A stretch of 64,000 bases of DNA from Ulva prolifera (lineage: Eukaryota > Chlorophyta > Ulvophyceae > Ulvales > Ulvaceae), in NCBI GenBank assembly GCA_023078555.1, contig CM041197.1, positions 7,275,810 to 7,339,809 on the forward strand, given 5' to 3'. Shown here in pieces: positions 16,190-62,721 of this stretch. How positions within the stretch are numbered: the first letter of the stretch is position 1; each line of letters begins with the position of its first letter. Both the position numbers and the translations under genes were made by a program. Below the pieces are notes generated by a model. It was not told the origin of the DNA. It saw only the letters and a program-made list of their open reading frames with translations, and searched no databases.

Positions 16190-16213
16190 CTGCCAACAGA
16201 TATCTGTTGGCAG
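16190..16213. repeat. 24-bp perfect palindrome (isolated copy)
   Basis: CTGCCAACAGAT followed by its exact reverse complement, centred on GATATC. It lies in the 175-bp unit 16097-16271, the only such unit outside zones IV and V, 18 kb from the next copy. Confidence 0.95.
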
Positions 16214-16550
16214 TCACTGTGCTTTTCCTCGCCAGCACAGCCAATAGATGGATGTGACTTGTTTCAGGTATGGATAGCAGTGCTTCGATGTCGCGCAGTC
16301 GCTGCTCGGCTGATTCGCGCATCAGCTCGGCTGGCGCAGCGGTTGGCCGGGTCGGAGGCATGTGTTGGCAGTCACAGCGCCTTTGCACGCCATCACAGCC
16401 AATATATGGATGTGCCTTGTGTCAGGTATGGCTAGCAGTGCTTCCATGTCGCGCAGTTGCTCCTCAGCTGATTCGCGAACCAGCCCGGCCGATTCGCGCA
16501 TCAGCTCGGCTGACGCAGCACTTGGCCGGGTCGGGGGCACCTGCCCAAAG

Positions 16551-17561
16551 TCACAGTGCTTTTGCAGGCCAGCGCAGCGAATATATTTATGTGGGTTGTG
16601 TCAGATGTGGCTAGCAGTGCTTCCATGACGCGCAGTCGCTCCTCGGCTGATTCGCGAACCAGCTCGGCTGGCGCAGCGGTTGGCCGGGTCGGAGGAATGT
16701 GTTGGCAGTCACAGCGCTTTTGCACGCCAGCACAGCGAATATATGGATGTGGGTTGTGTCAGATGTGGCTAGCAGTGCTTCCATGTCGCGCAGTCGCTCC
16801 TCGGCTGATTCGCGCATCAGCTCGGCAGGCGCAGCAGTTGGCCGGGTCGGGGGCATGTGTTGGCAGTCACAGCGTTTTCGAAGGCCAGCGCAGCGAATAT
16901 ATGGATGTGGGTTGTGTCAGATGTGGCTAGCAGTGCTTCCATGTCGCGCAGTCGCTCCTCGGCTGATTCGCGAACCAGCTCGGCTGGCGCAGCGGTTGGC
17001 CGGGTCGGAGGCATGTGTTGGCAGTCACAACGCTTTTGCACGCCAGCACAGCGAAGATATGGATGTGGGTTGTGTCAGTTGTGGCTAGCAGTGCTTCGAT
17101 GTCGCGCAGTCGCTGCTCGGCTGATTCGCGCATCAGCTCGGCTGGCGCAGCGGTTGGCCGGGTCGGAGGCATGTGTTGGCAGTCACAGCGCCTTTGCACG
17201 CCATCAGAACCAATATATGGATGTGCCTTGTGTCAGGTATGGCTAGCAGTGCTTCCATGTCGCGCAGTCGCTCCTCAGCTGATTCGCGAACCAGCCCGGC
17301 TGATTCGCGCATCAGCTCGGCTGACGCAGCACTTGGCCGGGTCGGGGGCACCTGCCCAAAGTCACAGTGCTTCTGCAGGCCAGCGCAGCGAAGATATGGA
17401 TGTGGGTTGTGTCAGATGTGGCTAGCAGTGCTTCGATGTCGCGCAGTCGCTGCTCGGCTGATTCGCGCATCAGCTCGGCTGGCGCAGCGGTTGGCCGGGT
17501 CGGAGGCATGTGTTGGCAGTCACAGCGCCTTTGCACGCCATCACAGCCAATATATGGATGT
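16551..17561 (+). repeat. 1.0-kb block repeated at 19637-20647 (3,086 bp apart)
   Basis: Shared marks are ATATATTTATG, GGCAGGCGCAGCAGTTGG, GAAGATATGG and GTCAGTTGTGG. Differences include GTTTTCGAAGG/GTTTTTGAAGG, CAGAACCAA/CAGAGCCAA and CTTCTGCAGG/CTTTTGCAGG. Confidence 0.84.
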
Positions 17562-18368
17562 GGGTTGTGTCAGGTGTGGCTAGCAGTGCTTCCATGTCGC
17601 GCAGTCTCTCCTCGGCTGATTCGCGAACCAGCTCGGCTGGCGCAGCGGTTGGCCGGGTCGGAGGCATGTGTTGGCAGTCACAGCGCCTTTGCACGCCAGC
17701 ACAGCCAATATATGGATGAGACTTGTGTCAGGTATGGCTAGCAGTGCTTCCATGTCGCGCAGTCGCTCCTCGGCTAATTTGCGAACCAGCCCGGCTGATT
17801 CGCGCATCAGCTCGGCTGACGCAGCACTTGGCCGGGTTGGGGGCACCTGCCCACAGTCACAGTGCTTTTGCAGGCCAGCGCAGCGAATATATGGATGTAG
17901 GTTGTATCAGATGTGGCTAGCAGTGCTTCCATGTCGCGCAGTCGCTGCTCGGCTGATTCGCGAACCAGCTCGGCTGGCGCAGCGGTTGGCCGGGTCGGAG
18001 GCATGTGTTGGCAGTCTCAGCGTTTTTGAAGGCCAGCAAAGCGAATATATGGATGTAGGTTGTGTCAGATGTGGCTAGCAGTGCTTCCATGTCGCGCAGT
18101 CGCTGCTCGGCTGATTCGCGAACCAGCTCGGCTGGCGCAGCGGTTGGCCGGGTCGGAGGCATGTGTTGGCAGTCACAACGCTTTTGCACGACAGCACAGC
18201 GAATATATGGATGTGGGTTGTGTCAGGTGTGGCTAGCAGTGCTTCCATGTCGCGCAGTCGCTCCTCGGCTGATTCGCGAACCAGCTCGGCTGGCGCAGCG
18301 GTTGGCCGGGTCGGAGGCATGTGTTGGCAGTCTTAGCGCCTTTGCACGCCAGCACAGCCAATATATGG

Positions 18369-18546
18369 ATGTGGGTGGTGTCAGATATGGCTAGCAGCGC
18401 TTCCATGTCGCGCAGTCACTGCTTGGCTGATTCGCGCATCAGCTCGGCAGGCGCAGCAGTTGGCCGGGTCGGGGGCATGTGTTGGCAGTCACAGCGTTTT
18501 TGAAGGCCAGCGCAGCGAATATATGGATGTGGGTTGTGTCAGATGT
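18369..18546 (+). repeat. Mosaic monomer with a longer zone IV-type tract
   Basis: Same lineage marks as 9338-9418 but extending through GCAGCAGTTGGCCGGGTCGG and the next GGG to about 18477, stopping just before the place where the palindromic insertion would lie; the rest is the CAGCGTTTTTGAAGG form. Confidence 0.85.
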
Positions 18547-20844
18547 GGCTAGCAGTGCTTCCATGTCGCGCAGTCGCTGCTCGGCTGATTCGCGAACCAG
18601 CTCGGCTGGCGCAGCGGTTGGCCGGGTTGGAGGCATGTGTTGGCAGTCACAACGCTTTTGCACGCCAGCACAGCCAATATATGGATGTGACTTGTGTCAG
18701 GTATGGCTAGCAGTGCTTCCATGTCGCGCAGTCGCTCCTCGGCTGATTTGCGAACCAGCCCGGCTGGCGCAGCGGTTGGCCGGGTCGGAGGCATGTGTTG
18801 GCAGTCACAGCGCCTTTGCACGCCAGCACAGCCAATATATGGATGAGACTTGTGTCAGGTATGGCTAGCAGTGCTTCCATGTCGTGCAGTCGCTCCTCGG
18901 CTGATTTGCGAACCAGCCCGGCTGATTCGCGCATCAGCTCGGCTGACGCAGCACTTGGCCGGGTTGGGGGCACCTGCCCACAGTCACAGTGCTTTTGCAG
19001 GCCAGCGCAGCGAATATATGGATGTAGGTTGTGTCAGATGTGGCTAGCAGTGCTTCCATGTCGCGCAGTCGCTGCTCGGCTGATTCGCGAACCAGCTCGG
19101 CTGGCGCAGCGGTTGGCCGGGTCGGAGGCATGTGTTGGCAGTCTCAGCGTTTTTGAAGGCCAGCAAAGCGAATATATGGATGTAGGTTGTGTCAGATGTG
19201 GCTAGCAGTGCTTCCATGTCGCGCAGTCTCTGCTCGGCTGATTCGCGAACCAGCTCGGCTGGCGCAGCGGTTGGCCGGGTCGGAGGCATGTGTTGGCAGT
19301 CACAACGCTTTTGCACGCCAGCACAGCGAATATATGGATGTGGGTTGTGTCAGGTGTGGCTAGCAGTGCTTCCATGTCGCGCAGTCTCTCCTCGGCTGAT
19401 TCGCGAACCAGCCCGGCTGATTCGCGCATCAGCTCGGCTGACGCAGCACTTGGCCGGGTTGGGGGCACCTGCCCACAGTCACAGTGCTTTTGCAGGCCAG
19501 CGCAGCGAATATATGGATGTGGGTTGTGTCAGATGTGGCTAGCAGTGCTTCCATGTCGCGCAGTCGCTGCTCGGCTGATTCGCGAACCAGCTCGGCTGGC
19601 GCAGCGGTTGGCCGGGTCGGAGGCATGTGTTGGCAGTCACAGTGCTTTTGCAGGCCAGCGCAGCGAATATATTTATGTGGGTTGTGTCAGATGTGGCTAG
19701 CAGTGCTTCCATGACGCGCAGTCGCTCCTCGGCTGATTCGCGAACCAGCTCGGCTGGCGCAGCGGTTGGCCGGGTCGGAGGAATGTGTTGGCAGTCACAG
19801 CGCTTTTGCACGCCAGCACAGCGAATATATGGATGTGGGTTGTGTCAGATGTGGCTAGCAGTGCTTCCATGTCGCGCAGTCGCTCCTCGGCTGATTCGCG
19901 CATCAGCTCGGCAGGCGCAGCAGTTGGCCGGGTCGGGGGCATGTGTTGGCAGTCACAGCGTTTTTGAAGGCCAGCGCAGCGAATATATGGATGTGGGTTG
20001 TGTCAGATGTGGCTAGCAGTGCTTCCATGTCGCGCAGTCGCTCCTCGGCTGATTCGCGAACCAGCTCGGCTGGCGCAGCGGTTGGCCGGGTCGGAGGCAT
20101 GTGTTGGCAGTCACAACGCTTTTGCACGCCAGCACAGCGAAGATATGGATGTGGGTTGTGTCAGTTGTGGCTAGCAGTGCTTCGATGTCGCGCAGTCGCT
20201 GCTCGGCTGATTCGCGCATCAGCTCGGCTGGCGCAGCGGTTGGCCGGGTCGGAGGCATGTGTTGGCAGTCACAGCGCCTTTGCACGCCATCAGAGCCAAT
20301 ATATGGATGTGCCTTGTGTCAGGTATGGCTAGCAGTGCTTCCATGTCGCGCAGTCGCTCCTCAGCTGATTCGCGAACCAGCCCGGCTGATTCGCGCATCA
20401 GCTCGGCTGACGCAGCACTTGGCCGGGTCGGGGGCACCTGCCCAAAGTCACAGTGCTTTTGCAGGCCAGCGCAGCGAAGATATGGATGTGGGTTGTGTCA
20501 GATGTGGCTAGCAGTGCTTCGATGTCGCGCAGTCGCTGCTCGGCTGATTCGCGCATCAGCTCGGCTGGCGCAGCGGTTGGCCGGGTCGGAGGCATGTGTT
20601 GGCAGTCACAGCGCCTTTGCACGCCATCACAGCCAATATATGGATGTGCCTTGTGTCAGGTATGGCTAGCAGTGCTTCCATGTCGAGCAGTCGCTCCTCA
20701 GCTGATTCGCGAACCAGCCCGGCTGATTCGCGCATCAGCTCGGCTGACGCAGCACTTGGCCGGGTCGGGGGCACCTGCCCAAAGTCACAGTGCTTTTGCA
20801 GGCCAGCGCAGCGAATATATTGATGTGGGTTGTGTCAGATGTGG

Positions 20845-34195: not shown

Positions 34196-34219
34196 CTGCC
34201 AACAGATATCTGTTGGCAG
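34196..34219. repeat. 24-bp perfect palindrome
   Basis: In 175-bp unit 34103-34277, the first unit of zone IV. This unit shares CACTGCTTGG and AGATATGG with the isolated copy at 16 kb. Confidence 0.95.
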
Positions 34220-35187: not shown

Positions 35188-35211
35188 CTGCCAACAGATA
35201 TCTGTTGGCAG
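35188..35211. repeat. 24-bp perfect palindrome
   Basis: In 175-bp unit 35095-35269; left part TCACTGCTCGG with GCGTATCAGC, next unit GGATAG with CTTTGATG. Confidence 0.95.
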
Positions 35212-36653: not shown

Positions 36654-36677
36654 CTGCCAACAGATATCTGTTGGCAG
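36654..36677. repeat. 24-bp perfect palindrome
   Basis: In 175-bp unit 36561-36735, member of the 491-bp trimer; next palindrome is 491 bp on. Confidence 0.95.
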
Positions 36678-42787: not shown

Positions 42788-43196
42788 GGATAGCAGTGCT
42801 TCGATGCCGCGCAGTCGCTGCTCGGCTGATTCGCGCATCAGCTCGGCCGGCGCAGCGGTTGGCCGGGTCGGAGGCATGTGTTTGCAGTCACAGCGCTTTT
42901 ACACGCCATCACAGCGAATATATGGATGTGGGTTGTGTCAGATGTGGCCAGCAGTGCTTCCATGTCGCGCAGTCGCTCCTCGGCTGATTCGCGAACCAGC
43001 TCGGCTGGCGCAGCGGTTGGCCGGGTCGGAGGAATGTGTTGGCAGTCACAGCGCTTTTGCACGCCAGCACAGCCAACATATGGATGTGGGTGGTGTCAGA
43101 TGTGGCTAGCAGCGCTTCCATGTCGCGCAGTCACTGCTCGGCTGATTCGCGTATCAGCTCGGCAGGCGCAGCAGTTGGCCGGGTCGGGGGCATATG

Positions 43197-43220
43197 CTGC
43201 CAACAGATATCTGTTGGCAG
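43197..43220. repeat. 24-bp perfect palindrome
   Basis: In 175-bp unit 43104-43278; followed by the TTCTTCGCC form and a CTTTGATG unit. Confidence 0.95.
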
Positions 43221-43910
43221 TCACTGTGCTTTTCTTCGCCAGCACAGCCAATATATGGATGTGACTTGTTTCAGGTATGGATAGCAGTGCTTTGATGTGG
43301 CGCAGTCGCTGCTCGGCTGATTCGCGCATCAGCTCGGCTGGCGCAGCGGTTGGCCGGGTCGGAGGCATGTGTTGGCAGTCACAGCCCTTTTGCACGCCAT
43401 CACAGCGATAATATGGATGTGGGTTGTGTCAGATGTGGCCAGCAGTGCTTCCATGTCGCGCAGTCGCTCCTCGGCTGATTCGCGAACCAGCTCGGCTGGC
43501 GCAGCGGTTGGCCGGGTCGGAGGAATGTGTTGGCAGTCACAGCGCTTTTGCACGCCAGCACAGCCAATATATGGATGTGGGTGGTGTCAGATGTGGCTAG
43601 CAGCGCTTCCATGTCGCGCAGTCACTGCTCGGCTGATTCGAACATCAGCTCGGCAGGCGCAGCAGTTGGCCGGGTCGGGGGCATCTGTTGGCAGTCACTG
43701 TGCTTTTCTTCGCCAGCACAGCCAATATGTGGATGTGAGTTGTGTCAAGTGTGGCTAGCAGTGCTTCCATGTCGCGCAGTCGCTGCTCGGCTGATTCGCG
43801 CATCAGCTCGGCTGCCGCAGCAGTTGGCCTGGTCGGAGGCATGTGTTGGCAGTCACAGTGATTTTGCACGCCAGCACAGCCAATATATGGATGTGACTTG
43901 TGTCAGGTAT

Positions 43911-44095
43911 GGCTAGCAGTGCTTCCATGTCGCGCAGTCGCTGCTCGGCTGATTTGCGAACCAGCCCGGCTGATCCGCGCATCAGCTCGGCCGCGGCTGT
44001 CGCAGCAGTTGGCCTGGTCGGGGGCATCTGTTGGCAGTCACTGTCCTTTTCCTCGCCAGCACAGCCAATATATGGATGTGACTTGTTTCAGGTAT
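43911..44095 (+). repeat. 185-bp monomer
   Basis: CCGCGG subtype, preceded by a unit with CAGTGATTTTGCACGCC and followed by a GGATAG unit with a private GCACATCAGC. Confidence 0.88.
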
Positions 44096-44504
44096 GGATA
44101 GCAGTGCTTCGATGTCGCGCAGTCGCTGCTCGGCTGATTCGCACATCAGCTCGGCTGGCGCAGCGGTTGGCCGGGTCGGAGGCATGTGTTGGCAGTCACA
44201 GCGCTTTTACACGCCATCACAGCGAATATATGGATGTGGGTTGTGTCAGATGTGGCCAGCAGTGCTTCCATGTCGCGCAGTCGCTCCTCGGCTGAATCGC
44301 GAACCAGCTCGGCTGGCGCAGCGGTTGGCCGGGTCGGAGGAATGTGTTGGCAGTCACAGCGCTTTTGCCCGCCAGCACAGCCAATATATGGATGTGGGTG
44401 GTGTCAGATGTGGCTAGCAGCGCTTCCATGTCGCGCAGTCACTGCTCGGCTGATTCGCGTATCAGCTCGGCAGGCGCAGCAGTTGGCCGGGTCGGGGGCA
44501 TATG

Positions 44505-44528
44505 CTGCCAACAGATATCTGTTGGCAG
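44505..44528. repeat. 24-bp perfect palindrome
   Basis: In 175-bp unit 44412-44586, first of two trimers marked by the private GCTGAATCGCG. Confidence 0.95.
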
Positions 44529-44995
44529 TCACTGTGCTTTTCTTCGCCAGCACAGCCAATATATGGATGTGACTTGTTTCAGGTATGGATAGCAGTGCTT
44601 CGATGTGGCGCAGTCGCTGCTCGGCTGATTCGCGCATCAGCTCGGCTGGCGCAGCGGTTGGCCGGGTCGGAGGCATGTGTTGGCAGTCACAGCCCTTTTG
44701 CACGCCATCACAGCGATAATATGGATGTGGGTTGTGTCAGATGTGGCCAGCAGTGCTTCCATGTCGCGCAGTCGCTCCTCGGCTGAATCGCGAACCAGCT
44801 CGGCTGGCGCAGCGGTTGGCCGGGTCGGAGGAATGTGTTGGCAGTCACAGCGCTTTTGCCCGCCAGCACAGCCAATATATGGATGTGGGTGGTGTCAGAT
44901 GTGGCTAGCAGCGCTTCCATGTCGCGCAGTCACTGCTCGGCTGATTCGCGTATCAGCTCGGCAGGCGCAGCAGTTGGCCGGGTCGGGGGCATATG

Positions 44996-45019
44996 CTGCC
45001 AACAGATATCTGTTGGCAG
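44996..45019. repeat. 24-bp perfect palindrome
   Basis: In 175-bp unit 44903-45077, 491 bp after the previous copy. Confidence 0.95.
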
Positions 45020-45823
45020 TCACTGTGCTTTTCTTCGCCAGCACAGCCAATATATGGATGTGACTTGTTTCAGGTATGGATAGCAGTGCTTCGATGTGGC
45101 GCAGTCGCTGCTCGGCTGATTCGCGCATCAGCTCGGCTGGCGCAGCGGTTGGCCGGGTCGGAGGCATGTGTTGGCAGTCACAGCCCTTTTGCACGCCATC
45201 ACAGCGATAATATGGATGTGGGTTGTGTCAGATGTGGCCAGCAGTGCTTCCATGTCGCGCAGTCGCTCCTCGGCTGATTCGCGAACCAGCTCGGCTGGCG
45301 CGGCGGTTGGCCGGGTCGGAGGAATGTGTTGGCAGTCACAGCGCTTTTGCACGCCAGCACAGCCAATATATGGATGTGGGTGGTGTCAGATGTGGCTAGC
45401 AGCGCTTCCATGTCGCGCAGTCGCTGCTCGGCTGATTCGCGCATCAGCTCGGCTGGCGCAGCGGTTGGCCGGGTCGGAGGCATGTGTTGGCAGTCACAGC
45501 GCTTTTGCACGCCAGCACAGCCAATACATGGATTTGACTTGTGTCAGATGTGCTAAGCAGTGCTTCCATGTCGCGCAGTCACTGCTCGGCTGATTCGCGA
45601 ACCAGCCCTGCTGATTCGCGCATCAGCTCGGCTGACGCAGCAGTTGGCCAGATCGGGGACACCTGCCCACAGTCACAGTGCTTTTGCACGCCAGCACAGC
45701 CAATATATGGATGTGGGTGGTGTCAGATGTGGCTAGCAGCGCTTCCATGTCGCGCAGTCACTGCTCGGCTGATTCGCGTATCAGCTCGGCAGGCGCAGCA
45801 GTTGGCCGGGTCGGGGGCATATG

Positions 45824-45847
45824 CTGCCAACAGATATCTGTTGGCAG
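45824..45847. repeat. 24-bp perfect palindrome
   Basis: In 175-bp unit 45731-45905, first of three consecutive palindromic units; followed by GTCCTTGTGC. Confidence 0.95.
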
Positions 45848-45998
45848 TCCTTGTGCTTTTCCTCGTTAGCACAGCCAATATATGGATGTGACTTGTTTCA
45901 GGTATGGATAGCAGTGCTTCGATGTCGCGCAGTCGCTGCTCGGCTGATTCGCGTATCAGCTCGGCAGGCGCAGCAGTTGGCCGGGTCGGGGGCATATG

Positions 45999-46022
45999 CT
46001 GCCAACAGATATCTGTTGGCAG
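45999..46022. repeat. 24-bp perfect palindrome
   Basis: In 175-bp unit 45906-46080, second of three consecutive palindromic units. Confidence 0.95.
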
Positions 46023-46173
46023 TCACTGTGCTTTTCCTCGCCAGCACAGCCAGTATATGGATGTGACTTGTTTCAGGTATGGATAGCAGTGCTTCGATGT
46101 CGCGCAGTCGCTGCTCGGCTGATTCGCGCATCAGCTCGGCAGGCGCAGCAGTTGGCCGGGTCGGGGGCATATG

Positions 46174-46197
46174 CTGCCAACAGATATCTGTTGGCAG
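46174..46197. repeat. 24-bp perfect palindrome
   Basis: In 175-bp unit 46081-46255, third in the row; this extra unit is absent from the sister cassettes at 39 and 53 kb. Confidence 0.95.
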
Positions 46198-47317
46198 TCA
46201 CTGTGCTTTTCCTCGCCAGCACAGCCAGTATATGGATGTGACTTGTTTCAGGTATGGATAGCAGTGCTTCGATGTCGCGCAGTCGCTGCTCGGCTGATTC
46301 GCGCATCAGCTCGGCTGTCGCAGCAGTTGGCCTGGTCGGGGGCATCTGTTGGCAGTCACTGTCCTTTTCCTCGCCAGAACAGCCAACATATGGATGTGAC
46401 TTGTTTCAGGTATGGATAGCAGTGCTTCGATGTCGCGCAGTCGCTGCTCGGCTGATTCGCGCATCAGCTCGGCTGACGCAGCAGTTGGCTGGGTCGGGGG
46501 CATCTGTTGGCATTTACAGTGCTTTTGCACGCCAGCACTGCCAATATATGGATGTGACTTGTATCAGGTATGGCTAGCAGTGCTTCCATGTCGCGCAGTC
46601 GCTGCTCGGCTGATTTGCGAACCAGCCCGGCTGATCCGCGCATCAGCTCGGCTGACGCAGCAGTTGGCCGGGTCGGGGACATCTGTTGGCAGTCACTGTG
46701 CTTTTCCTCGCCAGCACGGCCAACATATGGATGTGACTTTTTTCAGGTATGGATAGCAGTGCTTCGATGTTGCGCAGTCGCTGCTCGGCTGATTCGCGCA
46801 TCAGCTCGGCTAGCGCAGCGGTTGGCCAGGTCGGAGGCATGTGTTGGCAGTCACAGCGTTTTTGAACGACAGCACAGCGAATATATGGATGTGGGTTGTG
46901 TCAGATGTGGCTAGCAGTGCTTCGATGTCGCGCAGTCGCTGCTCGGCTGATTCGCGCATCAGCTCGGCTGGCGCAGCGGTTGGCCGGGTCGGAGGAATGT
47001 GTTGGCAGTCACAGCGCTTTTACACGCCATCACAGCGAATATATGGATGTGGGTTGTGTCAGATGTGGCCAGCAGTGCTTCCATGTCGCGCAGTCGCTCC
47101 TCGGCTGATTCGCGAACCAGCTCGGCTGGCGCAGCGGTTGACCGGGTCGGAGGAATGTGTTGGCAGTCACAGCGCCTTTGCACGCCAGCACAGCCAATAT
47201 ATGGATGTGGGTGGTGTCAGATGTGGCTAGCAGCGCTTCCATGTCGCGCAGTCACTGCTCGGCTGATTCGCGTATCAGCTCGGCAGGCGCAGCAGTTGGC
47301 CGGGTCGGGGGCATATG

Positions 47318-47341
47318 CTGCCAACAGATATCTGTTGGCAG
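47318..47341. repeat. 24-bp perfect palindrome
   Basis: In 175-bp unit 47225-47399; partner of the copy at 40423 (6,895 bp apart). Confidence 0.95.
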
Positions 47342-48189
47342 TCACTGTGCTTTTCCTCGCCAGCACAGCCAATATATGGATGTGACTTGTTTCAGGTATG
47401 GATAGCAGTGCTTCGATGTGGCGCAGTCGCTGCTCGGCTGATTCGCGCATCAGCTCGGCTGTCGCAGCAGTTGCCCTGGTCGGGGGCATCTGTTGGCAGT
47501 CACTGTGCTTTTCTTCGCCAGCACAGCCAACATATGGATGTGACTTGTTTCAGGTATGGATAGCAGTGCTTCGATGTCGCGCAGTCGCTGCTCGGCTGAT
47601 TCGCGCATCAGCTCGGCTGGCGCAGCGGTTGGCCGGGTCGGAGGCATGTGTTGGCAGTCACAGCCCTTTTGCACGCCAACACAGCGATAATATGGATGTG
47701 GGTTGTGTCAGATGTGGCCAGCAGTGCTTCCATGTCGCGCAGTCGCTCCTCGGCTGATTCGCGAACCAGCTCGGCTGGCGCAGGGGTTGGCCGGGTCGGA
47801 GGAATGTGTTGGCAGTCACAGCGCTTCTGCACGACAGCACAGCCAATATATGGATGTGGGTGGTGTCAGATGTGGCTAGCAGCGCTTCCATGTCGCGCAG
47901 TCACTGCTCGGCTGATTCGAACATCAGCTCGGCAGGCGCAGCAGTTGGCCGGGTCGGGGGCATCTGTTGGCAGTCACTGTGCTTTTCTTCGCCAGCACAG
48001 CCAATATGTGGATGTGAGTTGTGTCAAGTGTGGCTAGCAGTGCTTCCATGTCGCGCAGTCGCTGCTCGGCTGATTCGCGCATCAGCTCGGCTGCCGCAGC
48101 AGTTGGCCTGGTCAGAGGCATGTGTTGGCAGTCACAGTGATATTGCGCGCCAGCACAGCCAATATATGGATGTGACTTGTGTCAGGTAT

Positions 48190-48374
48190 GGCTAGCAGTG
48201 CTTCCATGTCGCGCAGTCGCTGCTCGGCTGATTTGCGAACCAGCCCGGCTGATCCGCGCATCAGCTCGGCCACGGCTGTCGCAGCAGTTGGCCTGGTCGG
48301 GGGCATCTGTTGGCAGTCACTGTCCTTTTCCTCGCCAGCACAGCCAATATATGGATGTGACTTGTTTCAGGTAT
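48190..48374 (+). repeat. 185-bp monomer
   Basis: CCACGG subtype, preceded by a unit with the private variants GGTCAGAGGCATG and CAGTGATATTGCGC. Confidence 0.88.
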
Positions 48375-48848
48375 GGATAGCAGTGCTTCGATGTCGCGCA
48401 GTCGCTGCTCGGCTGATTCGCGCATCAGCTCGGCCGGCGCAGCGGTTGGCCGGGTCGGAGGCATGTGTTTGCAGTCACAGCGCTTTTACACGCCATCACA
48501 GCGATAATATGGATGTGGGTTGTGTCAGATGTGGCCAGCAGTGCTTCCATGTCGCGCAGTCGCTCCTCGGCTGATTCGCGAACCAGCTCGGCTGGCGCAG
48601 CGGTTGGCCGGGTCGGAGGAATGTGATGGCAGTCACAGCGCTTTTGCACGCCAGCACAGCCAATATATGGATGTGGGTGGTGTCAGATGTGGCTAGCAGC
48701 GCTTCCATGTCGCGCAGTCACTGCTCGGCTGATTCGAACATCAGCTCGGCAGGCGCAGCAGTTGGCCGGGTCGGGGGCATCTGTTGGCAGTCACTGTGCT
48801 TTTCTTCGCCAGCACAGCCAATATGTGGATGTGAGTTGTGTCAAGTGT

Positions 48849-49322
48849 GGCTAGCAGTGCTTCCATGTCGCGCAGTCGCTGCTCGGCTGATTCGCGCATC
48901 AGCTCGGCTGCCGCAGCAGTTGGCCTGGTCGGAGGCATGTGTTGGCAGTCACAGTGATTTTGCACGCCAGCACAGCCAATATATGGATGTGACTTGTGTC
49001 AGGTATGGCTAGCAGTGCTTCCATGTCGCGCAGTCGCTGCTCGGCTGATTCGCGCATCAGCTCGGCTGCCGCAGCAGTTGGCCTGGTCGGAGGCATGTGT
49101 TGGCAGTCACAGTGATTTTGCACGCCAGCACAGCCAATATATGGATGTGACTTGTGTCAGGTATGGCTAGCAGTGCTTCCATGTCGCGCAGTCGCTGCTC
49201 GGCTGATTCGCGCATCAGCTCGGCTGCCGCAGCAGTTGGCCTGGTCGGAGGCATGTGTTGGCAGTCACAGTGATTTTGCACGCCAGCACAGCCAATATAT
49301 GGATGTGACTTGTGTCAGATGT
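48849..49322 (+). repeat. Three nearly identical 158-bp monomers in a row
   Basis: Units 48849-49006, 49007-49164 and 49165-49322 read the same (GGCTGCCGCAGCAG, GGCCTGGTCGGAGG, CAGTGATTTTGCACG) except for the last junction (CAGATGT instead of CAGGTAT). A fourth copy stands at 49814-49971. Neighbouring units elsewhere differ at many sites, so this is a local monomer-level amplification. Confidence 0.88.
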
Positions 49323-49415
49323 GGCTAGCAGCGCTTCCATGTCGCGCAGTCACTGCTCGGCTGATTCGCGTATCAGCTCGGCAGGCGCAGCAGTTGGCCG
49401 GGTCGGGGGCATATG

Positions 49416-49439
49416 CTGCCAACAGATATCTGTTGGCAG
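49416..49439. repeat. 24-bp perfect palindrome
   Basis: In 175-bp unit 49323-49497, directly after three nearly identical 158-bp units. Confidence 0.95.
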
Positions 49440-50064
49440 TCACTGTGCTTTTCTTCGCCAGCACAGCCAATATATGGATGTGACTTGTTTCAGGTATGGA
49501 TAGCAGTGCTTCGATGTGGCGCAGTCGCTGCTCGGCTGATTCGCGCATCAGCTCGGCTGGCGCAGCGGTTGGCCGGGTCGGAGGCATGTGTTGGCAGTCA
49601 CAGCCCTTTTGCACGCCATCACAGCGATAATATGGATGTGGGTTGTGTCAGATGTGGCCAGCAGTGCTTCCATGTCGCGCAGTCGCTCCTCGGCTGATTC
49701 GCGAACCAGCTCGGCTGGCGCAGCGGTTGGCCGGGTCGGAGGAATGTGTTGGCAGTCACAGTGATTTTGCACGCCAGCACAGCCAATATATGGATGTGAC
49801 TTGTGTCAGGTATGGCTAGCAGTGCTTCCATGTCGCGCAGTCGCTGCTCGGCTGATTCGCGCATCAGCTCGGCTGCCGCAGCAGTTGGCCTGGTCGGAGG
49901 CATGTGTTGGCAGTCACAGTGATTTTGCACGCCAGCACAGCCAATATATGGATGTGACTTGTGTCAGATGTGGCTAGCAGCGCTTCCATGTCGCGCAGTC
50001 ACTGCTCGGCTGATTCGCGTATCAGCTCGGCAGGCGCAGCAGTTGGCCGGGTCGGGGGCATATG

Positions 50065-50088
50065 CTGCCAACAGATATCTGTTGGCAG
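50065..50088. repeat. 24-bp perfect palindrome
   Basis: In 175-bp unit 49972-50146, 649 bp (four units) after the previous copy. Confidence 0.95.
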
Positions 50089-51029
50089 TCACTGTGCTTT
50101 TCTTCGCCAGCACAGCCAATATATGGATGTGACTTGTTTCAGGTATGGATAGCAGTGCTTCGATGTGGCGCAGTCGCTGCTCGGCTGATTCGCGCATCAG
50201 CTCGGCTGGCGCAGCGGTTGGCCGGGTCGGAGGCATGTGTTGGCAGTCACAGCCCTTTTGCACGCCATCACAGTGATAATATGGATGTGGGTTGTGTCAG
50301 ATGTGGCCAGCAGTGCTTCCATGTCGCGCAGTCGCTCCTCGGCTGATTCGCGAACCAGCTCGGCTGGCGCGGCGGTTGGCCGGGTCGGAGGAATGTGTTG
50401 GCAGTCACAGCGCTTTTGCACGCCAGCACAGCCAATATATGGATGTGGGTGGTGTCAGATGTGGCTAGCAGCGCTTCCATGTCGCGCAGTCACTGCTCGG
50501 CTGATTCGAACATCAGCTCGGCAGGCGCAGCAGTTGGCCGGGTCGGGGGCATCTGTTGGCAGTCACTGTGCTTTTCTTCGCCAGCACAGCCAATATGTGG
50601 ATGTGAGTTGTTTCAGGTATGGATAGCAGTGCTTCGATGTGGCGCAGTCGCTGCTCGGCTGATTCGCGCATCAGCTCGGCTGGCGCAGCGGTTGGCCGGG
50701 TCGGAGGCATGTGTTGGCAGTCACAGCCCTTTTGCACGCCATCACAGCGATAATATGGATGTGGGTTGTGTCAGATGTGGCCAGCAGTGCTTCCATGTCG
50801 CGCAGTCGCTCCTCGGCTGATTCGCGAACCAGCTCGGCTGGCGCAGCGGTTGGCCGGGTCGGAGGAATGTGTTGGCAGTCACAGCGCTTTTGCACGCCAG
50901 CACAGCCAATATATGGATGTGGGTGGTGTCAGATGTGGCTAGCAGCGCTTCCATGTCGCGCAGTCACTGCTCGGCTGATTCGCGTATCAGCTCGGCAGGC
51001 GCAGCAGTTGGCCGGGTCGGGGGCATATG

Positions 51030-51053
51030 CTGCCAACAGATATCTGTTGGCAG
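51030..51053. repeat. 24-bp perfect palindrome
   Basis: In 175-bp unit 50937-51111; partner of the copy at 36654 (14,376 bp apart). Confidence 0.95.
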
Positions 51054-51520
51054 TCACTGTGCTTTTCTTCGCCAGCACAGCCAATATATGGATGTGACTT
51101 GTTTCAGGTATGGATAGCAGTGCTTCGATGTGGCGCAGTCGCTGCTCGGCTGATTCGCGCATCAGCTCGGCTGGCGCAGCGGTTGGCCGGGTCGGAGGCA
51201 TGTGTTGGCAGTCACAGCCCTTTTGCACGCCATCACAGCGATAATATGGATGTGGGTTGTGTCAGATGTGGCCAGCAGTGCTTCCATGTCGCGCAGTCGC
51301 TCCTCGGCTGATTCGCGAACCAGCTCGGCTGGCGCAGCGGTTGGCCGGGTCGGAGGAATGTGTTGGCAGTCACAGCGCTTTTGCACGCCAGCACAGCCAA
51401 TATATGGATGTGGGTGGTGTCAGATGTGGCTAGCAGCGCTTCCATGTCGCGCAGTCACTGCTCGGCTGATTCGCGTATCAGCTCGGCAGGCGCAGCAGTT
51501 GGCCGGGTCGGGGGCATATG

Positions 51521-51544
51521 CTGCCAACAGATATCTGTTGGCAG
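51521..51544. repeat. 24-bp perfect palindrome
   Basis: In 175-bp unit 51428-51602; partner of the copy at 37145 (14,376 bp apart). Confidence 0.95.
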
Positions 51545-52076
51545 TCACTGTGCTTTTCTTCGCCAGCACAGCCAATATATGGATGTGACTTGTTTCAGGT
51601 ATGGATAGCAGTGCTTCGATGTGGCGCAGTCGCTGCTCGGCTGACTCGCGCATCAGCTCGGCTGGCGCAGCGGTTGGCCGGGTCGGAGGCATGTTTTGGC
51701 AGTCACAGCCCTTTTGCACGCCATCACAGCGATAATATGGATGTGGGTTGTGTCAGATGTGGCCAGCAGTGCTTCCATGTCGCGCAGTCGCTCCTCGGCT
51801 GATTCGCGAACCAGCTCGGCTGGCGCAGCGGTTGGCCGGGTCGGAGGAATGTGTTGGCAGTCACAGCGCTTTTGCACGCCAGCACAGCCAATATGTGGAT
51901 GTGAGTTGTGTCAAGTGTGGCTAGCAGTGCTTCCATGTCGCGCAGTCGCTGCTCGGCTGATTCGCGCATCAGCTCGGCTGCCGCAGCAGTTGGCCTGGTC
52001 GGAGGCATGTGTTGGCAGTCACAGTGATTTTGCACGCCAGCACAGCCAATATATGGATGTGACTTGTGTCAGGTAT

Positions 52077-52261
52077 GGCTAGCAGTGCTTCCATGTCGCG
52101 CAGTCGCTGCTCGGCTGATTTGCGAACCAGCCCGGCTGATCCGCGCATCAGCTCGGCCGCGGCTGTCGCAGCAGTTGGCCTGGTCGGGGGCATCTGTTGG
52201 CAGTCACTGTCCTTTTCCTCGCCAGCACAGCCAATATATGGATGTGACTTGTTTCAGGTAT
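52077..52261 (+). repeat. 185-bp monomer (rightmost)
   Basis: CCGCGG subtype and the last 185-bp unit of the window. It pairs with 37543-37727 across 14,534 bp. Confidence 0.88.
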
Positions 52262-52735
52262 GGATAGCAGTGCTTCGATGTCGCGCAGTCGCTGCTCGGC
52301 TGATTCGCGCATCAGCTCGGCTGGCGCAGCGGTTGGCCGGGTCGGAGGCATGTGTTGGCAGTCACAGCGCTTTTACACGCCATCACAGCGAATATATGGA
52401 TGTGGGTTGTGTCAGATGTGGCCAGCAGTGCTTCCATGTCGCGCAGTCGCTCCTCGGCTGATTCGCGAACCAGCTCGGCTGGCGCAGCGGTTGGCCGGGT
52501 CGGAGGAATGTGTTGGCAGTCACATTGCTTTTCCTCGCCAGCACGGCCAACATATGGATGTGACTTTTTTCAGGCATGGCTAGCAGTGTTTCCATGTTGC
52601 GCAGTCGCTGCTCGGCTGATTCGAACATCAGCTCGGCAGGCGCAGCAGTTGGCCGGGTCGGGGGCATCTGTTGGCAGTCACTGTGCTTTTCTTCGCCAGC
52701 ACAGCCAATATGTGGATTTGAGTTGTGTCCAGTGT

Positions 52736-52892
52736 GGCTAGCAGTGCTTCCATGTCGCGCAGTCGCTGCTCGGCTCATTCGCGCATCAGCTCGGCTGGCG
52801 CAGCAGTTGGCCGGGTCGGGGACATCTGTTGGCAGTCACATTGCTTTCCTCGCCAGCACAGCCAATATATGGATGTGACTTGTGTCAGGTAT
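52736..52892 (+). repeat. 157-bp monomer, one T short
   Basis: Copy of 38202-38358 with the same one-base loss, 14,534 bp downstream. Confidence 0.9.
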
Positions 52893-53050
52893 GGCTAGCA
52901 GTGCTTCCATGTCGCGCAGTCGCTGCTCGGCTGATTCGCGCATCAGCTCGGCTGGCGCAGCAGTTGGCTGGGTCGGGGGCATCTGTTGGCAGTCACTGTG
53001 CTTTTGCTTGCCAGCACAGTCAATATATGGACGTGAGTTGTGTCAGGTGT

Positions 53051-53207
53051 GGCTAGTAGTGCTTCCATGCCGCGCAGTCGCTGCTCGGCTGATTCGCGCA
53101 TCAGCTTGGCTGACGCAGCAGTTGGCCGGGTCGGGGGCATCTGTTGGCAGTCACTGTGCTTTTCCTCGCCAGCACAGCCAATATGTGGATGTGAGTTGTG
53201 TCAATGT
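53051..53207 (+). repeat. 157-bp monomer, one G short
   Basis: Copy of 38517-38673 with the same loss in the junction (TCAATGTGGC). The 222-codon open frame at 52882-53550 arises here for the same reason. Confidence 0.9.
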
Positions 53208-53637
53208 GGCTAGCAGTGCTTCCATGTCGTGCAGTCGCTGCTCGGCTGATTCTCGCATCAGCTCAGCTGGCGCAGCGGTTGGCCGGGTCGGAGGCATGTG
53301 TTGGCAGTCACAGCGCTTTTGCACGCCAGCACAGCCAATACATGGATTTGACTTGTGTCAGATGTGCTTAGCAGTGCTTCCATGTCGCGCAGTCACTGCT
53401 CGGCTGATTCGCGAACCAGCCCTGCTGATTCGCGCATCAGCTCGGCTGACGCAGCAGTTGGCCAGATCGGGGACACCTGCCCACAGTCACAGTGCTTTTG
53501 CACGCCAGCACAGCCAATATATGGATGTGGGTGGTGTCAGATGTGGCTAGCAGCGCTTCCATGTCGCGCAGTCACTGCTCGGCTGATTCGCGTATCAGCT
53601 CGGCAGGCGCAGCAGTTGGCCGGGTCGGGGGCATATG

Positions 53638-53661
53638 CTGCCAACAGATATCTGTTGGCAG
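53638..53661. repeat. 24-bp perfect palindrome
   Basis: In 175-bp unit 53545-53719, middle of a 179-175-175 cassette; partner of 39104 (14,534 bp apart). Confidence 0.95.
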
Positions 53662-53812
53662 TCCCTGTGCTTTTCCTCGTTAGCACAGCCAATATATGGA
53701 TGTGACTTGTTTCAGGTATGGATAGCAGTGCTTCGATGTCGCGCAGTCGCTGCTCGGCTGATTCGCGTATCAGCTCGGCAGGCGCAGCAGTTGGCCGGGT
53801 CGGGGGCATATG

Positions 53813-53836
53813 CTGCCAACAGATATCTGTTGGCAG
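53813..53836. repeat. 24-bp perfect palindrome
   Basis: In 175-bp unit 53720-53894, last unit of that cassette. Confidence 0.95.
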
Positions 53837-56800
53837 TCACTGTGCTTTTCCTCGCCAGCACAGCCAGTATATGGATGTGACTTGTTTCAGGTATGGATAG
53901 CAGTGCTTCGATGTCGCGCAGTCGCTGCTCGGCTGATTCGCGCATCAGCTCGGCTGTCGCAGCAGTTGGCCTGGTCGGGGGCATCTGTTGGCAGTCACTG
54001 TCCTTTTCCTCGCCAGAACAGCCAACATATGGATGTGACTTGTTTCAGGTATGGATAGCAGTGCTTCGATGTCGCGCAGTCGCTGCTCGGCTGATTTGCG
54101 AACCAGCCCGGCTGATCCGCGCATCAGCTCGGCTGACGCAGCAGTTGGCCGGGTCGGGGACATCTGTTGGCAGTCACTTTGCTTTTCCTCGCCAGCACGG
54201 CCAACATATGGATGTGACTTTTTTCAGGTATGGCTAGCTGTGTTTCCATGTCGCGCAGTCGCTGCTCGGCTGATTCGAACATCAGCTCGGCAGGCGCAGC
54301 AGTTGGCCGGGTCGGGGGCATCTGTTGGCAGTCACTTTGCTTTTCCTCGCCAGCACGGCCAACATATGGATGTGACTTTTTTCAGGTATGGCTAGCAGTG
54401 TTTCCATGTCGCGCAGTCGCTGCTCGGCTGATTCGAACATCAGCTCGGCTGCCGCAGCAGTTGGCCTGGTCGGAGGCATGTGTTGGCAGTCACAGTGATT
54501 TTGCACGCCAGCACAGCCAATATTTGGATGTGACTTGTGTCAGGTATGGCTAGCAGTGCTTCCATGTCGCGCAGTCGCTGCTCGGCTGATTTGCGAACCA
54601 GCCCGGCTGATCCGCGCATCAGCTCGGCTGACGCAGCAGTTGGCCGGGTCGGGGACATCTGTTGGCAGTCACTTTGCTTTTCCTCGCCAGCACTGCCAAC
54701 ATATGGATGTGACTTTTTTCAGGTATGGCTAGCAGTGTTTCCATGTCGCGCAGTCGCTGCTCGGCTGATTCGAACATCAGCTCGGCAGGCGCAGCAGTTG
54801 GCCGGGTCGGGGGCATCTGTTGGCAGTCACTGTGCTTTTCTTTGCCAGCACAGCCAATATGTGGATGTGAGTTGTGTCAAGTGTGGCTAGCAGTGCTTCC
54901 ATGTCGCGCAGTCGCTGCTCGGCTGATTCGCGCATCAGCTCGGCTGCCGCAGCAGTTGGCCTGGTCGGGGGCATCTGTTGGCAGTCACTTTGCTTTTCGT
55001 CGCCAGCACAGCCAAAATATGGATGTGACTTTTTTCTGGTATGGCTAGCAGTGCTTCCTTGTCGCGCAGTCGCTGCTCGGCTGATTCGCGCATCAGCTCG
55101 GCTGTCGCAGCAGTTGGCCTGGTCGGGGGCATCTGTTGGCAGTCACTGTGCTTTTCCTCGCCAGCATAGCCAATATATGGATGTGACTTGTGTCAGGTAT
55201 GGCTAGCAGTGCTTCCATGTCGCGCAGTCTCTGCTCCGCTGATTCACGATCCAGCTCGGCTGCCGCGGCGGTTGGCCGGGTCGGAGGCATGTGTTGGCAG
55301 TCACAGTGATTTTGCACGCCAGCACAGCCAATATGTGGATGTGAGTTGTGTCAAGTGTGGCTAGCAGTGCTTCCATGTCGCGCAGTCGCTGCTCGGCTCA
55401 TTCGCGCATCAGCTCGGCTGGCGCAGCAGTTGGCCGGGTCGGGGACATCTGTTGGCAGTCACATTGCTTTTCTTCGCCAGCACAGCCAATATGTGGATGT
55501 GAGTTGTGTCCAGTGTGGCTAGCAGTGCTTCCATGTCGCGCAGTCGCTGCTCGGCTGATTCGCGCATCAGCTCGGCTGGCGCAGCGGTTGGCCGGGTCGG
55601 AGGCATGTGTTGGCAGTCACAGCGCTTTTGCACGCCAGCACAGCCAATACATGGATTTGACTCGTGTCAGATGTGCTTAGCAGTGCTTCCATGTCGCGCA
55701 GTCGCTGCTCGGCTGATTTGCGAACCAGCCCGGCTGATCCGCGCATCAGCTCGGCTGATGCAGCAGTTGGCCGGGTCGGGGACATCTGTTGGCAGTCACT
55801 TTGCTTTTCCTCGCCAGCACGGCCAACATATGGATGTGACTTTTTTCAGGTATGGCTAGCAGTGTTTCCATGTCGCGCAGTCGCCGCTCGGCTGATTCGA
55901 ACATCAGCTCGGCAGGCGCAGCAGTTGGCCGGGTCGGTGGCATCTGTTGGCAGTCACTGTGCTTTTCTTCGCCAGCACAGCCAATATGTGGATGTGAGTT
56001 GTGTCAAGTGTGGCTAGCAGTGCTTCCATGTCGCGCAGTCGCTGCTCGGCTGATTCGCGCATCAGCTCGGCTGCCGCAGCAGTTGGCCTGGTCGGGGGCA
56101 TCTGTTGGCAGTCACTTTGCTTTTCCTCGCCAGCACAGCCAAAATATGGATGTGACTTTTTTCTGGTATGGCTAGCAGTGCTTCCATGTCGCGCAGTCGC
56201 TGCTCGGCTGATTCGCGCATCAGCTCGGCTGTCGCAGCAGTTGGCCTGGTCGGGGGCATCTGTTGGCAGTCACTGTGCTTTTCCTCGCCAGCACAGCCAA
56301 TATATGGACGTGACTTGTGTCAGGTATGGCTAGCAGTGCTTCCATGTCGTGCAGTCTCTGCTCCGCTGATTCGCGATCCAGCTCGGCTGCCGCGGCGGTT
56401 GGCCGGGTCGGAGGCATGTGTTGGCAGTCACAGTGATTTTGCACGCCAGCACAGCCAATATATGGATGTGACTTGTGTCAGGTATGGCTAGCAGTGCTTC
56501 CATGTCGCGCAGTCGCTGCTCGGCTCATTCGCGCATCAGCTCGGCTGGCGCAGCAGTTGGCTGGGTCGGGGGCATCTGTTGGCAGTCACTGTGCTTTTGC
56601 TTGCCAGCACAGTCAATATATGGACGTGAGTTGTGTCAGGTGTGGCTAGTAGTGCTTCCATGCCGCGCAGTCGCTGCTCGGCTAATTCGCGCATCAGCTT
56701 GGCTGACGCAGCAGTTGGCCGGGTCGGGGGCATCTGTTGGCAGTCACTGTGCTTTTCCTCGCCAGCACAGCCAATATGTGGATGTGAGTTGTGTCAAGTG

Positions 56801-57231
56801 TGGCTAGCAGTGCTTCCATGTCGCGCAGTCGCTGCTCGGCTGATTCGCGCATCAGCTCGGCTGGCGCAGCGGTTGGCCGGGTCGGAGGCATGTGTTGGCA
56901 GTCACAGCGCTTTTGCACGCCAGCACAGCCAATACATGGATTTGACTGGTGTCAGATGTGCTTAGCAGTGCTTCCATGTCGCGCAGTCACTGCTCGGCTG
57001 ATTCGCGAACCAGCCCGGCTGATTCGCGCATCAGCTCGGCTGACGCAGCAGTTGGCCGGATCGGGGACACCTGCCCACAGTCACAGTGCTTTTGCACGCC
57101 AGCACAGCCAATATATGGATGTGGGTGGTGTCAGATGTGGCTAGCAGCGCTTCCATGTCGCGCAGACACTGCTCGGCTGATTCGCGTATCAGCTCGGCAG
57201 GCGCAGCAGTTGGCCGGGTCGGGGGCATATG

Positions 57232-57255
57232 CTGCCAACAGATATCTGTTGGCAG
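57232..57255. repeat. 24-bp perfect palindrome
   Basis: In 175-bp unit 57139-57313 of the zone V cassette; the left part has a private GCGCAGACACTGC. Confidence 0.95.
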
Positions 57256-57406
57256 TCCCTGTGCTTTTCCTCGCCAGCACAGCCAATATATGGATGTGAC
57301 TTGTTTCAGGTATGGTTAGCAGTGCTTCGATGTCGCGCAGTCGCTGCTCGGCTGATTCGCGTATCAGCTCGGCAGGCGCAGCAGTTGGCCGGGTCGGGGG
57401 CATATG

Positions 57407-57430
57407 CTGCCAACAGATATCTGTTGGCAG
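57407..57430. repeat. 24-bp perfect palindrome
   Basis: In 175-bp unit 57314-57488, which starts with GGTTAG rather than GGATAG. Confidence 0.95.
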
Positions 57431-60312: not shown

Positions 60313-60354
60313 CACCAGCATAGCCAATATATGGATGTGACTTTTGTCAGGTAT
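60196..60354 (+). repeat. 159-bp monomer, one base long
   Basis: Reads CGCTGCCCCGGCTG where relatives have CGCTGCTCGGCTG, giving the only 159-bp spacing in the window. A related plain copy lies 474 bp upstream at 59722. Confidence 0.88.
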
Positions 60355-62522
60355 GGCTAGCAGTGCTTCCATGTCGCGCAGTCTCTGCTCCGCTGATTCA
60401 CGATCCAGCTCGGCTGCCGCGGCGGTTGGCCGGGTCGGAGGCATGTGTTGGCAGTCACAGTGATTTTGCACGCCAGCACAGCCAATATGTGGATGTGAGT
60501 TGTGTCAAGTGTGGCTAGCAGTGCTTCCATGTCGCGCAGTCGCTGCTCGGCTCATTCGCGCATCAGCTCGGCTGGCGCAGCAGTTGGCCGGGTCGGGGAC
60601 ATCTGTTGGCAGTCACATTGCTTTTCTTCGCCAGCACAGCCAATATGTGGATGTGAGTTGTGTCCAGTGTGGCTAGCAGTGCTTCCATGTCGCGCAGTCG
60701 CTGCTCGGCTGATTCGCGCATCAGCTCGGCTGCCGCAGCAGTTGGCCTGGTCGGGGGCATCTGTTGGCAGTCACTTTGCTTTTCCTCGCCAGCACAGCCA
60801 AAATATGGATGTGACTTTTTTTTGGTATGGCTAGCAGTGCTTCCATGTCGCGCAGTCGCTGCTCGGCTGATTCGCGCATCAGCTCGGCTGTCGCAGCAGT
60901 TGGCCTGGTCGGGGGCATCTGTTGGCAGTCACTGTGCTTTTCCTCGCCAGCACAGCCAATATATGGATGTGACTTGTGTCAGGTATGGCTAGCAGTACTT
61001 CCATGTCGTGCAGTCTCTGCTCCGCTGATTCGCGATCCAGCTCGGCTGCCGCGGCGGTTGGCCGGGTCGGAGGCATGTGTTGGCAGTCACAGTGATTTTG
61101 CACGCCAGCACAGCCAATATATGGATGTGACTTGTGTCAGGTATGGCTAGCAGTGCTTCCATGTCGCGCAGTCGCTGCTCGGCTCATTCGCGCATCAGCT
61201 CGGCTGGCGCAGCAGTTGGCTGGGTCGGGGGCATCTGTTGGCAGTCACTGTGCTTTTGCTTGCCAGCACAGTCAATAAATGGACGTGAGTTGTGTCAGGT
61301 GTGGCTAGCAGTGTTTCCATGTTGCGCAGTCGCTGCTCGGCTGATTCGAACATCAGCTCGGCAGGCGCAGCAGTTGGCCGGGTCGGGGGCATCTGTTGGC
61401 AGTCACTGTGCTTTTCTTCGCCAGCACAGCCAATATGTGGATGTGAGTTGTGTCAAGTGTGGCTAGCAGTGCTTCCATGTCGCGCAGTCGCTGCTCGGCT
61501 GATTCGCGCATCAGCTCGGCTGCCGCAGCAGTTGGCCTGGTCGGGGGCATCTGTTGGCAGTCACTTTGTTTTTCCTCGCCAGCACAGCCAAAATATGGAT
61601 GTGATTTTTTTCTGGTATGGCTAGCAGTGCTTCCATGTCGCGCAGTCGCTGCTCGGCTGATTCGCGCATCAGCTCGGCTGTCGCAGCAGTTGGCCTGGTC
61701 GGGGGCATCTGTTGGCAGTCACTGTGCTTTTCCTCGCCAGCATAGCCAATATATGGATGTGACTTTTGTCAGGTATGGCTAGCAGTGCTTCCATGTCGCG
61801 CAGTCGCTGCTCGGCTCATTCGCGCATCAGCTCGGCTGGCGCAGCAGTTGGCTGGGTCGGGGGCATCTGTTGGCAGTCACTGTGCTTTTGCTTGCCAGCA
61901 CAGTCAATATATGGACGTGAGTTGTGTCAGGTGTGGCTAGTAGTGCTTCCATGCCGCGCAGTCGCTGCTCGGCTAATTCGCGCATCAGCTTGGCTGACGC
62001 AGCAGTTGGCCGGGTCGGGGGCATCTGTTGGCAGTCACTGTGCTTTTCCTCGCCAGCACAGCCAATATATGGATGTGAGTTGTGTCAAGTGTGGCTAGCA
62101 GTGCTTCCATGTCGCGCAGTCGCTGCTCGGCTGATTCGCGCATCAGCTCGGCTGGCGCAGCGGTTGGCCGGGTCGGAGGCATGTGTTGGCAGTCACAGCG
62201 CTTTTGCACGCCAGCACAGCCAATACATGGATTTGACTTGTGTCAGATGTGCTTAGCAGTGCTTCCATGTCGCGCAGTCACTGCTCGGCTGATTCGCGAA
62301 CCAGCCCGGCTGATTCGCGCATCAGCTCGGCTGACGCAGCAGTTGGCCGGATCGGGGACACCTGCCCACAGTCACAGTGCTTTTGCACGCCAGCACAGCC
62401 AATATATGGATGTGGGTGGTGTCAGATGTGGCTAGCAGCGCTTCCATGTCGCGCAGTCACTGCTCGGCTGATTCGCGTATCAGCTCGGCAGGCGCAGCAG
62501 TTGGCCGGGTCGGGGGCATATG

Positions 62523-62546
62523 CTGCCAACAGATATCTGTTGGCAG
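62523..62546. repeat. 24-bp perfect palindrome
   Basis: In 175-bp unit 62430-62604; partner of 57232 (5,291 bp apart). Confidence 0.95.
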
Positions 62547-62697
62547 TCCCTGTGCTTTTCCTCGCCAGCACAGCCAATATATGGATGTGACTTGTTTCAG
62601 GTATGGTTAGCAGTGCTTCGATGTCGCGCAGTCGCTGCTCGGCTGATTCGCGTATCAGCTCGGCAGGCGCAGCAGTTGGCCGGGTCGGGGGCATATG

Positions 62698-62721
62698 CTG
62701 CCAACAGATATCTGTTGGCAG
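62698..62721. repeat. 24-bp perfect palindrome
   Basis: In 175-bp unit 62605-62779, rightmost copy, also starting with GGTTAG. Confidence 0.95.

Follow-up and report, generated by a model that had tools for sequence, protein, structure and literature searches.

Introduction

Alpha satellite and other higher-order-repeat satellites are built head to tail from monomers of roughly nucleosome length and carry length variants, multi-monomer blocks and recent block duplications. The CENP-B box is a short motif present in only one type of alpha-satellite monomer. In passages of two studies, short dyads in satellites are linked to centromeres (PMC9070824, PMC13081366), and one of these passages names the CENP-B box of alpha satellite (PMC9070824). 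Inverted sequence can also be produced by template switching: short-range template-switch mutations are described in part of a study on great apes (PMC7954356), and in sections of a study on yeast, template switches are reported to yield perfect inverted repeats and inverted spacers (PMC8604942). Here, we analyzed a stretch of 64,000 nucleotides from the chlorophyte Ulva prolifera (assembly GCA_023078555.1, contig CM041197.1, positions 7,275,810 to 7,339,809 of the forward strand; hereafter the window, with positions counted from its first base). The window consists of a satellite array in which a 17-base-pair (bp) insertion completes a perfect 24-bp palindrome in 26 monomers. Our analysis suggests that the insertion arose in a single inverted template-switch event and was then multiplied by turnover of the array, and that the palindrome is identical in all of its copies probably because these are young.

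The array shares with higher-order-repeat satellites all of the features listed above; unlike them, it matched no named family, and its G+C content is 58–61%. As in the template-switch mutations of the relevant parts of PMC7954356 and PMC8604942, a cluster of new bases is the reverse complement of nearby sequence, as one step would produce. Whereas the yeast passages of PMC8604942 deal with an existing arm or spacer that is rewritten, the new arm here is a 17-bp insertion, and, unlike the products presented in those parts of either study, this one appears to have been multiplied by satellite turnover. Like the dyad symmetries of centromeric satellites in passages of PMC9070824 and PMC13081366, the palindrome is an inverted repeat within a monomer and has hairpin potential. 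The dyads of those passages are mainly many and short (<10 bp) or much larger; in contrast, a single 24-bp dyad is found here in 26 of 393 monomers.

Results

The entire window is a single satellite array (1–64000, + strand) whose monomers run head to tail, with a basic monomer of 158 bp and length forms of 179, 175 and 185 bp; Tandem Repeats Finder gave periods of 158, 316 and 474. Monomers were cut at an 18-base anchor with at most 4 substitutions, and those between the first and the last anchor were taken as whole, both window ends being part monomers. The anchor matched 394 times on the + strand and had 0 matches on the minus strand of the window, yielding 393 whole monomers: 302 of 158 bp, 52 of 179 bp, 26 of 175 bp, 8 of 185 bp, 4 of 157 bp and 1 of 159 bp.

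The palindrome CTGCCAACAGATATCTGTTGGCAG occurs in 26 copies between 16190 and 62721, all with 0 mismatches and all on the + strand, against an expectation of 0 matches in 100 shuffles. It was present in each of the 26 monomers of 175 bp and in 0 of the 367 other monomers, and the window contains no other perfect palindrome of at least 12 bp. The original prediction, that 26 copies are identical at 24 of 24 positions and centred on GATATC, was confirmed by a 24-mer search. GATATC, the EcoRV site, is found 26 times in the window, which equals the palindrome count, and lies at the centre of every palindrome. Copies 1 to 5 are located at 16190–16213, 34196–34219, 35188–35211, 36654–36677 and 37145–37168. 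Copies 6 and 7 form a tandem pair (39104–39127 and 39279–39302), followed by copies 8 to 12 at 40423–40446, 41731–41754, 43197–43220, 44505–44528 and 44996–45019, and by a tandem triple of copies 13, 14 and 15 (45824–45847, 45999–46022 and 46174–46197). Copies 16 to 20 lie at 47318–47341, 49416–49439, 50065–50088, 51030–51053 and 51521–51544; the remaining six make up three tandem pairs, namely copies 21 and 22 (53638–53661 and 53813–53836), 23 and 24 (57232–57255 and 57407–57430), and 25 and 26 (62523–62546 and 62698–62721). This distribution is uneven, as 25 of the 26 copies fall within 34196–62721 and the copy at 16190 is a single outlier.

We then compared the insertion site between length forms. 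At this site, ordinary monomers mostly read GGGGGC-ATCTGTTGGCAG or GGAGGC-ATGTGTTGGCAG, the two half-sites that had been described for them earlier, and the 175-bp form reads GGGGGC-ATATG-CTGCCAACAGAT-ATCTGTTGGCAG. The 17-bp insertion thus consists of the 5 bases ATATG and the exact reverse complement of the adjoining 12 bases, with zero spacer, so that 12 of the 17 inserted bases are an exact inverted copy of sequence nearby. Because the chance of an exact 12-base inverted copy at zero distance is, by simple arithmetic, ~4 to the power −12 per site, the insertion is poorly ascribed to chance. ATATG is one base apart from each of ATCTG and ATGTG, the corresponding words of ordinary forms.

Monomers that lack the insertion and otherwise resemble the 175-bp form are present in the array. 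The closest single relative of the 175-bp consensus is a 158-bp monomer at 36097–36254 (+ strand), which has 3 differences in the part left of the insertion and 3 in the part right of it; the monomer starting at 50473, likewise without the insertion, has the same counts. An empty-site form therefore exists, at 6 differences, and the exact parent was not found among the monomers of the window. The best match to the left part is another 158-bp monomer without the insertion (18399–18556, + strand), with 2 differences in 78 bases to the consensus and 0 to the outlying 175-bp monomer (16107–16281, + strand), whose left 78 bases are those of 18399. In a FastTree tree of the 393 monomers with the inserted columns removed, the 26 copies formed one side of a branch with a support of 94, and their distribution required 1 change, whereas shuffles averaged 19.3; rows outside every length group were not counted and may lie inside this branch. 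The tree as a whole was weakly resolved, with support of at least 95 at 15 of 246 inner branches. The exact 12-base inverted copy, the empty-site monomers and the single tree branch support the proposal of one local inverted duplication that subsequently spread.

The surroundings of the copies show how far they share a history of duplication. For the 40 longest of the 325 copy pairs, 0.9 to 2.2 kilobases (kb) around the copies were collinear at 0.6–5.5% divergence; in one example, about 37.4–39.5 kb aligned with 51.9–54.1 kb with 16 differences in 2,153. When collinearity over 1.2 kb was required, the copies starting at 16190, 45824, 49416 and 50065 had no partner. Within the 26 monomers of 175 bp we counted 16 variable sites, 17 allele changes and 13 distinct sequences. 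Together with the duplicated blocks, these values support a recent origin of the copies in relative terms, no absolute date being possible, and to that extent the earlier suggestion of recency holds. A recent block duplication was also noted between 37553–39528 and 52087–54062, where 12 monomers carry 6 differences in total.

Next, we asked how unusual the identity of the palindrome is among these monomers. The palindrome occupies monomer positions 84–107 and lies inside an invariant run of 52 bp (58–109); the 26 bases to its left are equally invariant, and to its right changes start at the third base. The original prediction had named flanks as invariant as the palindrome as an observation that would count against constraint. 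This is the case for the 26 bases of the left flank and not for the right flank. The flank variants reported with it, CACTG, CCCTG and CCTTG, do occur, in 21, 4 and 1 copies, but near the palindrome only the right side varies. With the 16 variable sites placed at random, the probability that the 24 given positions stay clean is 0.084 (exact), and the probability of some clean run of at least 24 is 0.90. As controls we used 35 other clusters of 15 to 45 monomers, which are nested and not independent; 14 of them, of 158- or 179-bp monomers, had 12–22 variable sites, and 11 of these 14 contained a clean run of at least 24 bp. When each site is counted once, the palindrome thus has no significant deficit of variable sites relative to the rest of the monomer. 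Degraded palindromes, which had also been raised as potential counterevidence, were absent: no further copy of CTGCCAACAGATATCTGTTGGCAG with up to 3 mismatches is present in the window, a result that fits youth of the copies as well as constraint.

Other properties of the window agree with those of a satellite, as the array is long, head to tail, in one orientation, composed of repeated multi-monomer blocks and non-coding. Multi-monomer blocks with little divergence comprised 36 runs of at least 5 monomers (at most 4 differences per monomer), 21 of them starting beyond 33.5 kb, and the period of 474 also reflects such blocks; they are irregular and lack one fixed higher-order unit. A coding role was rejected, with 403 to 490 stops in each of the six frames and 7 open reading frames of at least 150 amino acids, the longest of 222. 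No RNA genes were detected in the window, with 0 Rfam matches at gathering scores and no transfer RNA. Searches of prokaryote genome contigs with the 24-mer and a 23-letter monomer pattern returned no exact match, two monomer patterns had no match in viral contigs, and blastn of 3,001 of the 64,000 bases had none in plasmid and phage collections; these negative searches make a prokaryotic, phage or plasmid origin improbable and a eukaryotic one most likely. In the open-licence part of PubMed Central, no title dealt with this satellite or with a monomer insertion that creates a palindrome, although this survey, mostly of titles, does not prove absence.

Discussion

We consider the 175-bp monomer to be, with a probability of about three in four, a neutral length variant that originated in one inverted template-switch event, was carried along by array turnover and is too young to have decayed. 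In one ancestral monomer, the replicating strand would have jumped to the complementary template, or folded back on itself, on reaching the half-site ATCTGTTGGCAG; after making an inverted copy of 12 bases without a spacer it would have returned, leaving ATATG, for a net gain of 17 bp. The later spread of the variant within the array, chiefly at 34–63 kb, would have come about through unequal exchange, duplication of blocks and conversion, and the 24-base identity would come from the youth of the copies and not from guarding. What we infer from the observations above is that a polymerase switched template, that the events followed this order, that the variant spread in these ways and that selection was absent. 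On this account, the array would be a clean example of how a single step can create a perfect palindrome that satellite turnover then multiplies, and a warning that identity among tandem copies does not in itself indicate function. Thanks to the empty sites and the outlier at 16190, the sequence of these events could be tested across a whole genome.

Several observations weigh against neutrality. The 52-bp invariant run is rather long: the probability of a clean run of at least 52 bp is 0.043 under random placement of variable sites, and none of the 14 like-sized control clusters contained one. Pair counts, taken over 25 collinear pairs (0.4–8.1% divergence) joined in a minimum spanning tree, point in the same direction. 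The wider flanks differed along this tree at 408 of 27,268 positions (1.5%), from which 10.1 palindrome differences were predicted and 0 were seen (naive Poisson P 4e-5), and the rest of the same monomers differed at 28 of 3,743, predicting 4.5, again with 0 seen (P ~0.011, by arithmetic). We gave these counts less weight because changes that copies share by descent or conversion are recounted over several edges (28 differences on the tree compared with 17 allele changes counted once), because one edge, 40423–57407, has 8% divergence, and because windows in the left flank are equally clean: every 24-bp window from −26 to +2 relative to the palindrome had zero differences, and 29 of the 30 clean windows among the 841 tested belong to this stretch. 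After this discounting, the 52 bp are still slightly more alike than expected, and half of that length lies outside the palindrome.

The half-site in ordinary monomers supplies further points of this kind. Common variant alleles in the half-site of 158-bp monomers numbered 0 before 33.5 kb, against a mean of 2.6 (10 of 147 windows of 12 bp were as low, itself included), and 2 after 33.5 kb, against a mean of 4.8 (20 of 147 as low or lower). By allele frequency over the same 147 windows, the half-site core had the lowest diversity in both parts of the array, at monomer positions 80–91 and 81–92 before 33.5 kb (0.008, mean 0.064) and at 82–93 after it (0.022, mean 0.110); the exact 12 bases 79–90 ranked 3rd and 24th of 147, respectively. 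Rare alleles gave a different picture and indicate that the half-site readily acquires new mutations, most of which stay rare: there were 11 in its 12 bp, compared with an all-window mean of 8.4; before 33.5 kb there were 9 (mean 5.5), and no window has more, and after it 4 (mean 5.6), a slight depletion. Many rare and no common variants form a pattern that weak purifying selection would also leave. The low diversity could reflect such weak selection or an accident of which monomers were amplified, and it is the best argument for function that we found.

These points bear most directly on the idea, contained in the original prediction, that selection maintains the palindrome because a DNA-binding protein uses it as a dimeric site, by analogy with the CENP-B box in part of the alpha-satellite monomers. 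Such a site would explain why all 26 palindromes are identical, why 0 differences were seen where the pair counts predict 4.5 or 10.1, why the half-site core is the least diverse stretch of 158-bp monomers in both array halves, and why the palindrome is confined to one length form, much as the CENP-B box is confined to one monomer type. Yet the 26 bases of the left flank are just as invariant, P is 0.084 when variable sites are counted once, rare alleles of the half-site are not depleted before 33.5 kb and little after it, the core is missing from 45 of the 52 monomers of 179 bp, and no site in the window agrees with the CENP-B box NTTCGNNNNANNCGGGN at all nine of its fixed bases (0 sites with 0 mismatches). 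The sequence of this candidate site does not match that box either. We regard protein-driven constraint as unlikely: it is not established by these data, and the pair counts and the low half-site diversity keep it alive. A combined scenario, in which a template switch made the full dyad from a weakly guarded half-site and a host protein binds it as a dimer, helping the variant to spread, strikes us as rather improbable; if it were true, a satellite box like that of CENP-B would have been caught at birth. Still lower in our estimation is the idea that extrusion of the palindrome into a hairpin or cruciform causes the blocks that carry it to break and be amplified. A single strand is predicted to fold into 12 pairs (10 in the palindrome around a loop of 4, and 2 past a bulge), with modelled energies of −11.5 kcal/mol for 36 bases (z −5.2) and −22.8 in a 101-base context (z −3.4), and palindrome-bearing blocks are indeed much duplicated. 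However, a stretch with an empty site comes close to the same folding energy over 101 bases (−21.0, z −2.5), and ends of duplicated runs fell at 175-bp monomers in 4 of 42 cases, where 6.9 were expected (P for so low a value, 0.15). Of the two monomers at which the match first fails beyond an end, exactly one was of 175 bp at 10 of at most 42 ends (9.7 expected). Without an excess at duplicated-run ends, the palindrome was rejected as the breakpoint of block duplication, and the hairpin explanation as a whole appears highly improbable.

A neutral origin by template switch is compatible with a more specific history, in which the 175-bp form is the junction of two monomer types, the left like 18399 and the right of the 185-bp type, with the palindrome made in the exchange. 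This variant of our preferred reading, which does not compete with it, is possible though rather doubtful. The right part of the 175-bp form is nearest to the 185-bp monomers, and the copies at 16107 and 34113 have two states in common with 18399 (T26/C39). For that T26/C39 state, two donors require 1 difference where the best single donor requires 6, and the breakpoint is best placed within 68–97, an interval that spans the insertion. Against this, among 297 control monomers for which a single donor costs 6, 75 reach a two-donor cost of 0 or 1 when relatives under 6 differences are removed from the donors, and the single monomer type at 36097, with its 6 differences, also serves. Because so many controls do as well, the two-donor origin stays a suggestion. 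An assembly or sequencing artefact is hardly credible. Inverted copies are a known product of fold-back artefacts such as fold-back reads, but here one and the same 17-base insertion is shared by 26 monomers that comprise 13 distinct sequences and have four kinds of neighbour pair.

Some minor features of the array and of the palindrome are recorded here. CENP-B box sites with one mismatch number 17, all on the minus strand; they may represent one monomer variant. The NFI site is TTGGC N5 GCCAA. Read by eye, the palindrome is not such a site, since it has the form GCCAA N10 TTGGC with the arms reversed in direction. The array has two domains, with 179-, 175- and 185-bp counts of 40, 1 and 0 before 33.5 kb and of 12, 25 and 8 after it. 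The 179-bp form carries 21 extra bases that adjoin a like unit of 21, and the 185-bp form has 6 bases beyond these (21 + 6 extra). The 185-bp monomers (n = 8, e.g., at 34604) represent a third length form and often follow a few monomers after a 175-bp one. Finally, CTG-CCCA-CAG or CTG-CCCA-AAG takes the place of CTG-TTGG-CAG in the 45 monomers of 179 bp without the half-site core (e.g., 17300–17370) and in one monomer of 158 bp. Plain inversion of TTGG gives CCAA, from which CCCA is one more change away, and by arithmetic 13 of the 256 possible four-letter words come equally close, so we treat a second inverted event there as no more than a lead.

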